Of a DNA stretch of 64,000 bases, positions 2,316 through 61,342 are shown piece after piece. Source of the DNA: Lunularia cruciata (lineage: Eukaryota > Streptophyta > Marchantiopsida > Lunulariales > Lunulariaceae); NCBI GenBank assembly GCA_948567375.1, contig OX419759.1, positions 45,598,593-45,662,592 on the forward strand, in the 5' to 3' direction. The notes below the pieces were generated by a model. The model saw only the letters and a program-made list of their open reading frames with translations. It was not told where the DNA came from and made no database searches. The first letter of the stretch is position 1, and each line of letters opens with the position of its first letter. Both the position numbers and the translations under genes were made by a program.

Positions 2316-2840
2316 TTATGGGCAAAACACGGTATCGTAGTTGGTGCCTGTGGTACAAGTGTAAGTTGTAGCTGTATGCTTCAGGACACGCTGTCTTAAA
2401 CTGCCTTGTGCCAGCTGTAGGGCCTTGTCCGGCAGTTCCGTCCGTGTTGATACATACAAGCGCTCCTCTGGGCTGAGGCTGGAGAACATTGTTGGGTTTA
2501 CACAAAGCGCTGGATAGCCACCAGAGAGACATGTTAAGAAGGAAACCCAAGGAGATACAATGTATAAAATGGCCCTCAACGTAAGAACTCACGGCTGTTG
2601 ATGAGTGCCAACAAAGACGTGCCTTATTTCTATCAGTAGCTGCGTTTGGAGTTCCAGCCACTGCGCACTGTCCAGACACTGACGCCCATATAGTTCCAGC
2701 CACCCAATTGCAGGAAGACCCAAAATTAAGAGCTTGTGTAGCTCCACTAGCCAGGTCGTACTGATCTATGGGATTATTTTGATTTTGCACGCAGGTAGAC
2801 ACCGTGTAGGGGCACTTTTTCCGAATCGTAATTACACAAC
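2316..2840 (-). pseudogene. Thaumatin-like protein (PR-5 family) pseudogene
   Basis: This is a broken copy of the locus at 42535-43967. The second-exon motifs [12 protein letters not shown] and [14 protein letters not shown] are readable from 2840 leftwards. The exon stops after the residues DRNKA and is fused directly to what was intron 2, so the AEFTL...QDYYDIS segment is lost. The join falls on the six bases gcctta (2621-2626), which occur at both breakpoints in the intact copy. A second deletion of about 20 nt near 2366 removes the DDPTSTYT region and shifts the C-terminal frame. The signal-peptide exon is also gone: the region around 3085 jumps from the exon 1 edge straight to upstream sequence. 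The identity is firm because the sister copy reads as a thaumatin domain. The gene cannot make a normal PR-5 protein. Confidence 0.85.
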
Positions 2841-2911
2841 CTGTGATGAAAATATGATCTTACGTCAGGGACTAATCACATCAAAACCACGGAGTTTCAC
2901 CCATACCAAAT

Positions 2912-2954
2912 AACTGATTTATCTGCACGTTCCGCCTGTGCAGATAAATCAGTT
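2912..2954. repeat. Perfect 17-bp inverted repeat, 9-nt loop
   Basis: The arms 2912-2928 and 2938-2954 are exact reverse complements, with a loop at 2929-2937. The sister copy near 43735-43790 has only the right arm (with substitutions) and unrelated sequence where the left arm would be. The hairpin therefore arose after duplication. Confidence 0.9.
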
Positions 2955-3068
2955 GCAAAGTTAACATCCAATAAATCAGTTCCATGTATTGCCCACTCAA
3001 GCTCGTATCAAAAACATGTACAATGTAACCACGGAAACAGGACTCAGAGGATATCTTTTAAGTCATTT

Positions 3069-3091
3069 CCGTTGCTGACAGTTGCTGACAG
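3069..3091. repeat. Short tandem duplication at the lost exon 1
   Basis: The word gttgctgaca is repeated back to back where the thaumatin-like signal-peptide exon has been deleted. The intact copy has it once, at 43902-43911. The repeat marks the deletion join. Confidence 0.7.
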
Positions 3092-5990
3092 TCCAGAATT
3101 AACGCGTGGCAATCCCTGGTTTATTGACTGACTTTTGACGGCACTATTATTCGTGCTTTGCTCGCACTACTCTTCGGCCCCGACTTTCTTCAGGACATCC
3201 CCGACTCTCAACTGTGAGGCCTTTGGGACCATCGATTCCGTCCTTTTTACGCCTGCATATACAGGTCCCGGGGTTTGACCAGTAGTGAAACATTTTCAGG
3301 GGATTTGAAGAAGTTCAATCAGGAATATGTGAAGGCTGCAAAGTTGGTGAAGGCCAATATGGATGTCATTGTTCAATAATTTTGTAAATAAAATTCAACA
3401 CATATATTATATTATAATTGAAAAAATTATAATTTGGCCCATTGCATTTCAGATGGAGCGCCAGCATTCGTGTTTGATACTACGCACGACCGAAAGACAC
3501 ATATCAAATCAGAAAGTCAAGGTAGAACGAATACAAAGCACCGCGTTACAGGACCAAGCATCCGGCCGATTCAGGTCGCTGAAACGCGATATGAAAGGGC
3601 CGGATACTACGCTGCGGAGTCTAGCATCCCAAATTCACATAGTAAACTTCATGTATATATTTTTATTTATTATATTTCCACATATATAGTTTTATCTCAC
3701 CCTTGTACTGCTTGATGGGGTTTCATGGTATCTACGCGATCCGCCCATTCTCTCTTTATACTCACTATTAAATATCCGTCAGCTGAATGGTTTAGAGGAT
3801 AACACGAGAATAAAGTAGTGACGGGATGACAGCAGAAGCGGCACAGATACCGATGTCTCCACTTGTTATGGGACACGAATTGGAAAGCTTCACTGATAAA
3901 ATATTGGTTTGGAACGAGTGTACCTGCCTCAAGTCAAAAGGTTTTTACACCGGGTCCAATGCGGTCGACATTTATATCATCCGAATCATCATGCTGAAAT
4001 TCGATGAAGTCACAGTCTGTTTTATATCCATGGTCAAAGGATGAATTTGATGTACATCGATGTGCTCCAGTCCGTTTCCACTGTATATACATAAACCACT
4101 CAGAAGTTATCGAAGTCATTGGTTAAGTGTAGGACGGCCTACGTGGTAAGCCGGCCTTCACATACATATAGATCAGATTAGACATATGTACTGGAGCTTC
4201 ATACAATGGTGGAGTATACGGGTGCTGAGAAACCTGATTATGTTTCAGCGCATGCAACGATCGTGGATGATCTAGAGATTATGACATCCTTGCAGCCCTG
4301 GACAACAGTGACGTTGGTACTATCAGATGGGCTAATAGCTTTACAGGTGACATCTTTAGTCTGCCATTTGTGAATGTCATCACCATCAGCCTCCAGAAAT
4401 ACCGTTCTAGCTAGACAATCGTTTCTAGGACAGTCCACATGATCATTTCAAACGTATGCTTTGGTGAACGAGCTCTTGTTAGATTGTTCAATGTTCTTTC
4501 GAAGTGCAGATGGAATGCATGATCATTGTTGATTTTACAGGTAAAGAGTTTCTAAATCATGGCCTACGGCGCTGATCAATCAAGACTCTACCTTGAGATT
4601 GATATATACGTTCAAATAAGGAAAGGTGCTAGGGAGAAAACCGACATCCAGACCAGACGGTGTGGAGAGCTTCTTCAGATACGTGGTTTGCTACAAAGTG
4701 GATCTGCAACAAACTGTATAGATCGTAACGGTATCGGGATGATACGATTATATTATGGATACCCAAACATGAGGGTCTGGAATTCGCAAAAGATGGTTGT
4801 CACGTATCAATATATGATCGTACAAAATTTCGACAAGCTCCAATTGCCCGTGTGGGCCAAGAGATAGAACGCAAAACGATGCGGATGCCACATCAGCGAG
4901 GATCTCATATCAAATTTGTGAAAGCGATAACGTGATAAATAATGAATTCCACTCTACTGTCGGAGAACGTGATATTCTTCTGTAGTTCCTGGTTTCCGGA
5001 GGTTTTTGCATGATCCACCGGCCGGTCCGCATAACGGAGTCTCCGCTGCTTTTGAAGAGCCAATCTACTCATCAGGGAAGAAATGAGTAACAATCTTATT
5101 TGTAAATGCTATCGGTGTTAACTTTTAATGTGTAAGGTTCCATGTTGATATGGAAATTAATGAAGTCTGAACTTTGGGACATCCATCGTACGTTCTCATG
5201 AGATTGGGTTCGATTTCAGACTAACCAGGATCAGTCTCAATCTCAGTTGTTCAGCTGATGTAGTTCTCAGTCCAAATCGACGGTTTGTCCCAAACGTCTA
5301 CTCAAACGAAACAAGCTGATGGTAACGGTTTGCAACGTGATCAGATCGTAACAAGAGATATAAAACAAAATTTGAATCAGAATAGGACCTCTACCATAGA
5401 GTCTACAAAGGATCCAATAAATACCCCATCCTCATATGGACTGACATACTCTGTCAGAGAATTCAAGCGGACCTTCACGAACACACCCAATATGAGTATC
5501 GGCGTTCATCATCCCCAAAGTGAAGATGCGGGCCCCTTGAACCATGAAGCTCGATTCCCATGGTGCAAATCTCTCGTCGCGCGGCATCGCACATCCGTTT
5601 CTTTCGGTCGTAGCCGAAATTCATATTTCGGCAAATGATAATATAAACGAGAATACAACCCGTTGATCCCCGGTCGGTAACATGACACGACGAAAGGGGC
5701 ATTCAAAACGAAATCTTCATTTCTCGTAACTGGGGTCAATGACCGTTAGCACCTTTCACAAGGGAAGTGCCTTCAAATTGAAGATCGATGAAAAAGATGA
5801 CGGCATTGAAAGGTCCTGAAGCTCGCGAATATAGTTGAATTATGAAAATCAAGGATCAAAATTGTTGCCATTGCGTATTTATATTTTTAGACTACCAATT
5901 AGAGTAAGTTTTAATTTTTCACTGTCAAGTTTCATATTTTAACATGAAGTAATACTCTCTACCACGCTTCGAACCTTGAGAAAAGTCCCT
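3090..5990. repeat. Block B, copy 1 (unrecognised)
   Basis: The block is shared with 28560-31540 and 44130-46490, and more distantly with 20640-21640. It begins in the upstream flank of the thaumatin-like locus. Short frames such as 3434-3715, 4559-4867 and 5285-5638 are open here, but single-base indels break several of them in sister copies, so I do not call genes. It is mixed in base composition, with AT-rich ends. It could be old promoter-distal intergenic DNA or an unclassified element. No terminal repeats were seen. Confidence 0.75.
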
Positions 5991-12657: not shown

Positions 12658-12735
12658 AAAGACGGGCATGGGACAGGATTGTGCAAAACGAATGGAGTCA
12701 CTCGTTTGGCACCATCCTGTCCCATGCATTTCTTT
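12658..12735. ncRNA. Hairpin, microRNA-precursor-like (copy 1, arm mismatches)
   Basis: The 34-nt arms 12658-12691 and 12702-12735 pair around a 10-nt loop. Compared with the copy at 61265-61342, the right arm here carries changes (cgtttggc, gcatttc) that weaken pairing. Transcription is unknown, so calling it an RNA gene is a hypothesis; an inverted repeat of transposon origin is the alternative. Confidence 0.4.
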
Positions 12736-22605: not shown

Positions 22606-22685
<80 letters not shown>

Positions 22686-26203: not shown

Positions 26204-26244
26204 TGGTGTAGATCTATACTCTCCTAGAGTATAGATCTACACCA
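26204..26244. repeat. Perfect 19-bp palindrome, 3-nt loop, in copia integrase
   Basis: The arms 26204-26222 and 26226-26244 are exact reverse complements around cct. The related copia fragment near 50468-50510 has the left arm (one change) but unrelated sequence in place of the right arm. The palindrome is therefore a secondary change in this element. Confidence 0.93.
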
Positions 26245-28062: not shown

Positions 28063-28420
28063 TTCCTCATCACTTTCATTTGGCTGAACTCTTGAATACT
28101 GTAATACTGGACCACTCATGGTATCTAGCCACTTTAATACTTTGCCATAGTAGTGACTGAATATATCAAGATAAGGGCCTGTCCCGCACCTTGTTGTTTC
28201 ATCATTTATGTTTGCTCCTGATTGTGATAGTCTTCAATAATCTGTCAAGTCACTAATAACAAGCCAAACATAATAATCTATTTCTAAGGAAATTGTGCAA
28301 TATTATACATGCACTTATCCATTTCAAAATGTATCAATTTCTTTGAGACTTCTTTAGTTGGAACCTGATCCCCCACAGGAAGTGCTATTGAGCCTTTAGT
28401 ATCTCAATATAGTGCTCATT
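28063..28420. other. Spacer between copia element and block B copy 2
   Basis: AT-rich, without a recognisable gene. It probably includes the rest of the copia LTR, but no matching terminal CA end or second LTR was found. Confidence 0.3.
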
Positions 28421-38781: not shown

Positions 38782-38804
38782 CCTAAACCCTAAACCCTAA
38801 ACCC
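38782..38804. repeat. Interstitial telomeric repeat, three CCCTAAA units
   Basis: Three units of the plant telomere repeat (cctaaaccctaaaccc and on) sit inside block A. Copy 1 (about 142-146) lacks them: it reads tctcatcatccc where this copy has ctcat, the insert, and gaatcatccc. About 27 bases were inserted at one point. Confidence 0.95.
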
Positions 38805-42534: not shown

Positions 42535-43967
42535 TTATGGGCAAAACACGGTATCGTAGTTGGTGCCTGTGGTACAAGTGTAAGTTGAAGTTGGATCGTC
42601 AAAGTTGTAGCTGTATGCTTCAGGACACGCTGTCTTAAACTGCCTTGTGCCAGCTGTAGGGCCTTGTCCGGCAGTTCCGTCCGTGTTGATACATACAAGC
42701 GCTCCGCTGGGCTGAGTCTGGAGAACATTGTTGGGTTTACAGAAAGCGCTGGATAGCCACCAGAGAGACATGTTAAGAAGGAAACCCAAGGAGATACAAT
42801 GCATAAAATGGCCCTCAACGTAAGAACTCACGGCTGCTGATGAGTGCCAACAAAGAACGTGCCTTAAACTTTCGCAGTTATTACATGCCCAAACTTATGG
42901 ATTGTAGAGCATTGCACCTGATATCACTGATGGTACAGTCTGGAGATCCGCATCTAAATCCGTTTGGTGTTTCTCCGCCTGCTATATTTGTAGGAGTAAT
43001 ACCCAAGGGGATTGTGTATGCATTCTACAAATGTCCAATATGGCAAGCATTAGCTTTTGTAGATCACAGATGCTGCTGGCTCGATGCGTTCAACGTCTAT
43101 ATTGCTGTTGAATATAACGCGAAACTCTCATACTTGGACGTTTTTTCTCGTACAGATGTGATACTCCAGCAGCTATTTCTTTCACCATTGATTCTGTATA
43201 ATATCAGATTCTCCCTTATTCTCCTGGAAATCGTGATTCAAGAGCTATTGTACTCATTCACCTCGATCAGCAGAAACCGAATTAATCTATTTGATTTAAT
43301 ATATGCGAACAGTACCAAAGCTATAAAATTCTTCTTAGGGCGAACCTTCTGATCATGAGCTGTATAGGTCCGGAGAACTTACCACGTTACTGATATCATA
43401 ATAGTCTTGACCACCATCACCGAGGGTGAACTCAGCCAAGTCGGCCTTATTTCTATCAGTAGCTGCGTTTGGAGTTCCAGCCACTGCGCACTGTCCAGAC
43501 ACTGACGCCCATATAGTTCCAGCCACCCAATTGCAGGAAGACCCAAAATTAAGAGCTTGTGTAGCTCCACTAGCCAGGTCGTACTGATCTATGGGATTGT
43601 TTTGATTTTGCACGCAGGTAGACACCGTGTAGGGACACTTGTTCCGAATCGTAATTACACAACCTGTGATGAAAAAATGATCTTACGTCAGGGACTAATC
43701 ACATGAAAACCACGGAGTTTCACCCATACCAAACAATCGAATAGGGAGAAACGTTCCGTCCGTGCAGATACATCAGTGGCAAAGTTAACATCTAATAAAT
43801 CAGTTCCATGTATTGCTCACTCAAGCTCGTATCACAAACATGTATAATGTAACCACGGAAACAGAACTCAAGAGGATATCTGTGAAGTCATTTCCCTTAC
43901 CGTTGCTGACAGTTGCAGTCATCACTGTCAGAAGCAGAAGTCCCAGGCCTAGTCGAGAAGTCGCCAT
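42535..43967 (-). CDS. Thaumatin-like protein (PR-5 family), three exons
   Basis: A predicted secreted defence-type protein of the thaumatin fold. Exon 1 (43901-43967) gives a signal peptide, [20 protein letters not shown], ended by a GTAAG donor. Exon 2 (43383-43663, after CAG) joins in frame and gives [31 protein letters not shown], then [19 protein letters not shown], a hallmark thaumatin stretch with acidic REDDD-type residues; its donor is GTAAGT. Exon 3 ends at 42535 with [28 protein letters not shown] and TVFCP plus stop, the classic C-terminus. The exon 3 start is uncertain: an AG at 42814-42815 keeps frame (about 208 aa). The best-looking acceptor (branch-like cttaac, then pyrimidines to ctatccag near 42752) hits a stop. 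The text [11 protein letters not shown] lies in the adjacent frame, so a one-base loss may have disabled the gene. The cysteine-rich domain II of large family members is absent. Confidence 0.8.
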
Positions 43968-48949: not shown

Positions 48950-51245
48950 ACTCACCATAGATTTGCCATGTATATACTCACCATAGCAAAATTAAACTCC
49001 CAATAGCACTCATAAGGATTATTTGACGTTATTTTTCTCTCCTCATTTGATGGACATTGCTCCAACTATATCTTGAAATGACTTGCCATTGCAGTGCTCA
49101 CTGGTTTTGCATTCTCCATGCCAAAATGAGCAAGTAATTTCTCCAAATATCTCATTTGAGATATCCATAACTTTCCTTTGCTCTTGTCCCGGTGGATTTC
49201 AATCCCAATCACCATCTTTGAAGAACACAAGTCCTTCATATCAAACTCCTTACCAAGGTTTGCTTTCAATTTGTCCACCTCAACCATATCCTCCATGGCA
49301 ATCAACATATTATTCACATATAGGACCAAAATGATTAAATCAAATACTCTTGGTCCATGTAGCTTCTTGAGGTACACTCAAAAATCTGACTCACTTCTGT
49401 TATATCCATGCTTCAACATGAAAGCAACAAATTTCATGTACCAAAGTCTTGGACTTTGGTTCTGTGCATATAAAGACTTTTTATAACTTGCAAACTAGGT
49501 TTTCATTCCTTGGTACCACAAAACCTTCAGGTTGATGCATAAAAGTCTCTCCTCCAATTCTTGGTGTTAGAAACCAGTTGTAACACTAGTTGCTCCAACT
49601 CCAAGTTATGCAACACAACTATTACCAACAATACATGAAATGAAGAAATTTTTACCTTGGTGAAAAGATCTCATTGAAGTCAATATCTTCTTTTGGCTAT
49701 AATCCTTTGCTACAAGCATTGCTCTGTATTGATCTTCCCTGGATTTGGACGTCCTCCTTCTTCCAAAATATCCATCTGCAACTAATTGCGCTCTTTCCCA
49801 TAGGCAATTTTTCAAGTCTCTAAGTTTGTATTTTGGCCAAAGACTTCATCTCCTCATCCATTGCACAATGCCATTTTTTACACTCTTATTTGACTCCATC
49901 ATGTGAGTCTCATCTAAAACTACATTCCTACTTAGAACAAGGCAACACCTCTTTGGATCCCATAATCTATATCCCTTTGTATACATCTCATATCCCAAGA
50001 ATATACATTTTCTATATTTAGAATCTAACTTTGTCCTTTGTTCTTGTTAAATATGAACATAAGCTTTGCATCCAAACACTCAAAAGTGAAGCATAATCAA
50101 CATGCCAACCTGTCCATTTTTCCATAGGTGCCTTACACTCAATAGTGGCTGAAGGAGAAATGTTTACCCAATGACTAGCCATATTGAAAGCTTGTGCCCA
50201 AAAGCTATTCTCCAATCCAGAGTTGCTTAACATACTTCTTGAATTCTCCAAGAGTGTATGATTATCCGCTCTTCCACTCCATTTTGTTGAGGTGTACCTA
50301 GTATGGTAAAGTGATGAAATATCCATTCACTCTTACAATATCTTTCAAACTCTCCAGGTTTGTATTCTCTACCATTATCAGATCTCAAACACTTGACTTT
50401 CCTTTCGGTTTTATTTTCCATCATCACCTTCCATTGTTTAAAGATAGAGAAGACCTCTAATGTTTGCTTCATGGTGTATATCTATACTCTCCTAGAGTAA
50501 TCATCAACCAAAGATACAAAATATAATGCTCTAGATCTTGAAGCTTTAGGTGTAGGGTACCAAACATTGGAATACACATAGTCTCATATCCTCTTTGTGC
50601 AATGAACTCTTGTGGAAAAGCTTACCCTCCATTGCTTTCTTGTTACACAATGCTCATAGAATTTTAGCTTACAACTTCTAAGAGCCTTCAAAAGTTGTTG
50701 CTTGGACAGTGCACTTAGACCCCTTTCACTCATATGATGGAAATGGAGGTGCCATAAGTGAGTGACATCTTTGGGATCTTCTTTTTCATAAATAGTAATT
50801 GCCACTCCTTTGGTAACCCTTAATCTCCAAACATAACTCATAAAGCTCATAAAAAACTCCAACATAGCTCATAAAGATTTCCTATCTTCTTGCTCTTCAT
50901 GGAAACCAGTGATCCTTTTGTTACCTTGCGTATTCTATTTTCTGCTCCCCACCTCCAACCATTTGACTCTAAAGTGCCTAGTGATACCAAATTCTTCCTT
51001 AACTCAAGAACCTGCCTCACGTCAGCAAGAGTTCTTGCAACACCATCAAACACCTTAATGTGTATTGTACCAATGACAATAGCTTTACAAGCCATGTTGT
51101 TCCCCATTATCATAGATCTTCCATTGAATGGTTTGTATTCATCAAACCACTCCTTATTTGGATACATATGATAAGAGCAACCAGAGTCCAAATAAGCTAG
51201 GCTAAAAACTCCACTATAGGATAGGCACTTTAGTTTATACACCTA
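48950..51245 (-). mobile_element. Ty1-copia fragment (protease to RT)
   Basis: On the - strand from the right, the protease reads LDSGCSYHMYPNKEWF (frame 50847-51242), with DSG intact. The pre-integrase follows (HLWHLHFHHMSERGLSAL, CKLKFYEHCV), then the integrase core (CLRSDNGREY, FHHFTILGTPQQNGVEER, frames 50018-50472). RT ends the fragment (frame 49066-49377; LVLYVNNMLIAMEDM). The catalytic YVDD is YVNN here, so this RT is dead by sequence. A few bases of RNase H-side sequence remain to 48950. Gag and LTRs are missing. It preserves more of integrase than the other fragments. Confidence 0.87.
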
Positions 51246-61264: not shown

Positions 61265-61342
61265 AAAGACGGGCATGGGACAGGATTGTGCAAAACGAAT
61301 GGAGTCACTCGTTTTGCACCATCCTGTCCCATGCCTTTCTTT
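61265..61342. ncRNA. Hairpin, microRNA-precursor-like (copy 2)
   Basis: The arms 61265-61298 and 61309-61342 pair at about 31 of 34 positions around a 10-nt loop (61299-61308). The core ggcatgggacaggat pairs with atcctgtcccatgcc without a mismatch. Pairing drops away just outside. Stem length and symmetry suit a short plant microRNA precursor or a recently formed inverted duplication. No RNA evidence is available. Confidence 0.5.

Follow-up and report, generated by a model that had tools for sequence, protein, structure and literature searches.

A short-range template switch as the probable origin of a perfect palindrome in a truncated thaumatin-like gene copy

Excerpts of a study of great apes (PMC7954356) report 4017 template-switch events, with the majority patterns giving single inverted repeats, and those of a yeast study (PMC8604942) describe the homogenisation of an inverted repeat in which a 4-bp arm with a 7-bp spacer became an 11-bp arm. 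The event proposed here, at positions 2912-2954 of a 64,000-nucleotide stretch of DNA (the window), belongs to this known kind of template switch, its pattern being the one reported for most of the great-ape events, and is not a new mechanism. As in the four-point-model switches of great apes, so far as those excerpts describe them, a cluster of mutations is accounted for by one reverse-complement copy of its neighbour and the direction is taken from a phylogeny; unlike there, the score is a simple one and not the pair HMM of that work, and the polarity of the event comes from paralogues within a single genome instead of from species. It resembles the template switches that create RNA hairpins (PMC8794818, also in excerpt) in that a perfect stem arises from a single event with an adjoining source, but it lies within an intron, in a truncated copy of a gene, where an RNA gene is neither known nor proposed. 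Like the yeast case, as excerpted, it turns a short inverted repeat into a longer perfect one on a single branch; in contrast to it, 3 bp here become at least 17, and they do so in an intron instead of coding sequence. A literature search, judged by titles, found no paper that looks devoted to short switches of this sort in the nuclear genomes of plants. The single genome studied here, with its 16 outgroup copies, shows a long perfect stem arising by the copying of a neighbour, and shows that arrays of paralogues can polarise template switches without a second species, in blocks that would otherwise be taken for hypervariable sequence or poor alignment.

The palindrome has a left arm (2912-2928) that is the perfect reverse complement of its right arm (2938-2954), forming a 17-bp inverted repeat, as the preliminary description of copy 1 had it, around a 9-base loop (2929-2937), all on the forward strand. 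Under independent bases, 0.0005 repeats with an arm of at least 17 bp and a loop of 0 to 60 bases are expected per 64 kb; the window contains one longer non-AT perfect inverted repeat within that loop range, at 26204-26244. As RNA on the gene's strand, the palindrome folds to -25.7 kcal/mol, which none of 200 shuffles equals, while the same stretch of copy 3 reaches -6.0 kcal/mol, and 195 of 200 shuffles fold at least as well. The good folding of the palindrome copy follows from its origin.

Copy 1 and copy 3 align over 2614-3092 and 43438-43913 with 92.5% identity; copy 2 does not extend to the palindrome stretch, its alignment with copy 3 beginning at 28420 and 43967, respectively. The counterpart of the palindrome in copy 3 lies at 43735-43778, where the loop is homologous and kept with two changes, and 6 of the 17 pairs form in the aligned columns, with nine differences in the left arm and two in the right. 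One of the right-arm differences is an A at 2947 (C>A), private to the palindrome copies; at the other, facing 2954, copy 3 has a G private to its own group (L009, L010 and L012). It had been claimed that copy 3 has the right arm alone beside unrelated sequence on the left: the unrelated left sequence stands, and the right arm is present at 15 of 17 bases, not complete. The further estimate that about 18 bases were replaced holds for the interval between the flanks (17 versus 18 bases), but the minimal rewritten tract is smaller, with 13 bases in copy 1 (2914-2926) standing for 14 in copy 3 (43737-43750, forward strand), a net change of -1 base.

The direction of the change was read from the copies across the genome (565.8 Mb, with the window at contig C8:45598593-45662592). 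A search with 2614-3092 found 21 places, 18 of which align across the palindrome site; the other three (L019-L021) match short exon pieces alone and were omitted from the alignment. The palindrome is present in two of the 18, the window copy (L001) and a copy 78 kb upstream (L002) that differs from it at 3 of 3479 bases, and a whole-genome pattern search allowing up to 3 mismatches found these two places and none elsewhere. All 16 others (L003-L018), which lie on three contigs and are 3.2-19.7% diverged, lack it and have a left block of the copy-3 type with small variations. The six most distant of them (L013-L018, contigs C7 and C12) differ from L001 by 5.8-19.7% outside the palindrome, the figure for L018 covering 259 columns only. 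Against L003, 10 of 14 alignment columns differ in the rewritten tract and 15 of 380 outside it; the flanks beyond the switch points are collinear and 3.2-3.9% different from L003-L012. A tree built on 2625-3060 without 2905-2960 makes L001 and L002 the sister group of L003-L012, which has support 0.853, and joins L001-L012 against L013-L018 (support 0.983). It supersedes a first tree, whose non-homologous ends had inflated the branch of L001 and L002 and given them another placement. Because every other aligned copy keeps the copy-3 type block, the palindrome is, judged from these aligned copies, the derived state among the paralogues of one genome, and its left arm is the overwritten one. 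A single origin that preceded the duplication or conversion separating L001 from L002 is enough to explain both copies.

The source of the rewritten block is its own neighbour. All 17 bases of the derived block match a reverse complement lying 9 bases away, and matching the block against its reverse-complemented 100-base flanks gives 32.5 bits, whereas the maximum of the null is 28.8 bits and none of 29,974 permuted or substituted null blocks reaches the score. An alignment allowing a template switch gains 36.5 bits over the linear one from copy 3 to copy 1, compared with 10.6 bits in the reverse direction; these values come from a simple alignment score with nulls, not a pair HMM. The 24 alignments between paralogues in the window contain 45 mismatch clusters, which are not independent; the gain of 36.5 bits is the largest among them, followed by two clusters at 16.8 bits, of which the 26204 palindrome is one. 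The gain itself was first used as the null statistic, with 3 of 4000 random blocks reaching 36.5 bits, and was replaced by the block-match test, since the score also rewards avoiding any bad linear alignment. The alignment comparison and the outgroup check suggested with the preliminary description thus both agree with its proposal that a strand switch overwrote the block with the reverse complement of its neighbour: the switch model beats the linear one, and 16 of 16 outgroup copies are without the palindrome.

Very probably, then, a single short-range template-switch mutation took place in the lineage of the palindrome copy. The closest sisters (L003-L008) read CAA, 14 bases, ACG and then the loop, where L001 has 13 bases for 14, and the reverse complement of the right side likewise starts with CAA and ends with ACG. 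Both switch points therefore fall in 3-base microhomologies common to the target and to the reverse complement of the source. Further, CGT on the far side of the loop can pair with the ACG adjoining the loop; ACG is found in L001-L012, while the more distant copies have ACA, and L017 has ATA. During copying that ran leftward through the intron (in window orientation), the nascent strand would have detached with the right side and the loop just made, and its 3' end (CGT) would have folded back to pair with the ACG made a few bases earlier. The folded strand would then have copied its own earlier stretch, from the right arm as template, before rejoining its proper template at the CAA match, so that a reverse-complement copy of the right arm replaced the 14 bases. 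Alternatively, the strand may have switched onto the opposite template strand, which would leave an identical trace. Replication is the presumed setting, with the microhomologies as likely primers; the sequence trace is alike for replication and repair, as it is for a fold-back and a switch between strands.

The 3-base microhomologies of the closest sisters suggest that the palindrome was born with 19-bp arms (2911-2929 and 2937-2955) around a 7-base loop (2930-2936), an extent of 2911-2955. Two C>T changes, at 2911 and at 2937 (the latter at a CpG and private to the palindrome copies), would later have weakened both ends of the newborn palindrome. Together with 2947, these positions make three further private changes within 31 neighbouring columns, each needing a separate substitution; the post hoc Poisson probability of at least three comes to 0.014 if 6 private sites are counted elsewhere and to 0.038 if 9 are, a mild excess. 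L016 has T2911 and C2914 in common with copy 1, which is read from the alignment as homoplasy. Opposite the A at 2947, the left arm has a T; either that A predates the switch or the arms were equalised afterwards.

The second of these options leads to a variant of the template switch in which at least two steps took place and hairpin-templated repair later perfected an imperfect repeat (quasi-palindrome correction). Such a correction could yield the left-arm match to the right-arm change C2947A, although one substitution before the switch accounts for the same data. No intermediate is seen in any of the 18 aligned copies, and the closest sisters offer just the 3-bp ACG/CGT pair around a 7-base loop. 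As noted above, moreover, most shuffles of copy 3 fold at least as well as copy 3 itself. The stepwise variant is accordingly considered unlikely.

A much less probable explanation takes the palindrome as ancestral and copy 3 as the altered one, through a switch of its own or conversion from elsewhere. The two window copies taken alone are compatible with it, and copy 3 does have private changes facing 2935 and 2954, but the copy-3 type block in 16 of 18 copies, all six distant ones included, contradicts it. In addition, searching the window yielded no convincing donor of the copy-3 block: the nearest candidate differs at 4 of 21 positions. Against its own surroundings, the copy-3 block scores at most 11.6 bits in reverse complement, compared with 32.5 bits for copy 1. 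An assembly or sequencing artefact, such as a fold-back chimera, is similarly improbable. The palindrome occurs in two copies that the assembly separates by their 3 differences, so that an isolated assembly slip is not its source, and a chimera would hardly be expected to return in register minus one base. Least credible of all is the arrival of the palindrome from unrelated palindromic DNA, through gene conversion or insertion, for example from the end of a small transposon with inverted repeats. Transposons contain inverted repeats of such size, but the idea is contradicted by the loop and right arm, which are homologous in all 18 aligned copies, and the net length change of -1 and the lack of any further genome occurrence at up to 3 mismatches also speak against it.

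The proposed template switch at 2912-2954 has a probable companion in the window. The palindrome at 26204-26244, with 19-bp arms and a 3-base loop, is the window's longest non-AT palindrome and lies in a dispersed repeat with at least 51 matches (40 of 535 candidates scored). The comparison set consists of 30 loci, including the window's own place (L022), and a window copy at 50472, for a total of 31. The perfect palindrome is found in three of these (L022-L024), and 27 of the 28 copies without it (all except L025) have a 6-bp stem, TACTCT/AGAGTA, which is lengthened in the palindrome; the return point shows a 4-base ACCA match. From the distribution of the copies, and not from a tree, the palindrome looks like a derived state in which a quasi-palindrome was made perfect, and it is probably the product of a second template-switch event. 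The conversion of a pre-existing imperfect repeat fits 26204 better than it fits 2912-2954, whose closest sisters show 3 bp. Two other inverted structures were observed in the window. An alternating AT run at 22606-22642 is trivially palindromic, and a nested inverted repeat with outer arms of 14-15 bp and inner arms of 10-11 bp is found in both paralogues, at 12666-12727 and 61272-61335, and probably predates their duplication.

A scan for further events covered loci L001-L051 and the window, with 3034 unique blocks and their context. At 24 bits or more, 13 reverse-complement scores were obtained, all involving fragments of the two known palindromes, compared with 1 in the reverse-only control, 0 in the complement-only control and 3 in the direct comparison; at 19 bits or more, the counts were 28, 7, 1 and 47, respectively. 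One mismatch block, perhaps simple sequence, reached 45.9 bits in the reverse-only control and again in the direct comparison, a value that exceeds every reverse-complement score. The scan thus found no third event of comparable strength among L001-L051 and the window, and a raised rate is not claimed. It is conceivable, but doubtful, that the recently amplified chromosome segments containing the window were copied by an error-prone and switch-prone process, for example break-induced replication, and that the palindrome, the three private substitutions and the 26204 palindrome are its traces and not two unrelated accidents. If similar cases proved common in the segmental array, they would tell how the array was amplified.

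The palindrome appears, from the gene structure of its paralogues, to sit in the former intron 1 of a dead-looking fragment of a thaumatin-like gene. In particular, the copy-3 exon (93 residues) matches Thaumatin (PF00314) with an E-value of 8e-06 at 26.1 bits, below the family cut-off of 27.4, and the exon 2 remnant of copy 1 (2614-2840, minus strand) is 97.3% identical to it over 75 residues by tblastn. On the minus strand of copy 3, the signal-peptide exon (43967-43899) and the next exon (matched over 43661-43383) are open, around an intron (43664-43900) delimited by visual inspection of GT..AG and the frame. Copy 1 is without the start of exon 1, of which just 8 residues at the end still match, and its match stops inside exon 2. 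It also has no GTAAG donor (5' splice site); this donor is present in 14 of the 16 non-palindrome copies, while L016 has GTAAA and the search string was not found in L017. Given its location in the former intron of a truncated gene copy, no function is expected of the palindrome. A solved-structure search with the exon gave 0 matches at the default cut-off, and a pattern scan of a viral collection also gave 0 matches. The gene family, together with one CCCTAAACCCTAAA site in the window at 38788, suggests that the DNA may be from a plant. The deletion edge in copy 1, at 3060-3092, carries a short tandem repeat, with TTGCTGACAG occurring twice.

The thaumatin-like copies at C8:45.49-45.66 Mb and C8:51.89-52.82 Mb look like parts of large recent segmental duplications. 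Around the window they follow a 78-kb step, and near-identical copies are found on the opposite strand, several of them about 200 kb apart.
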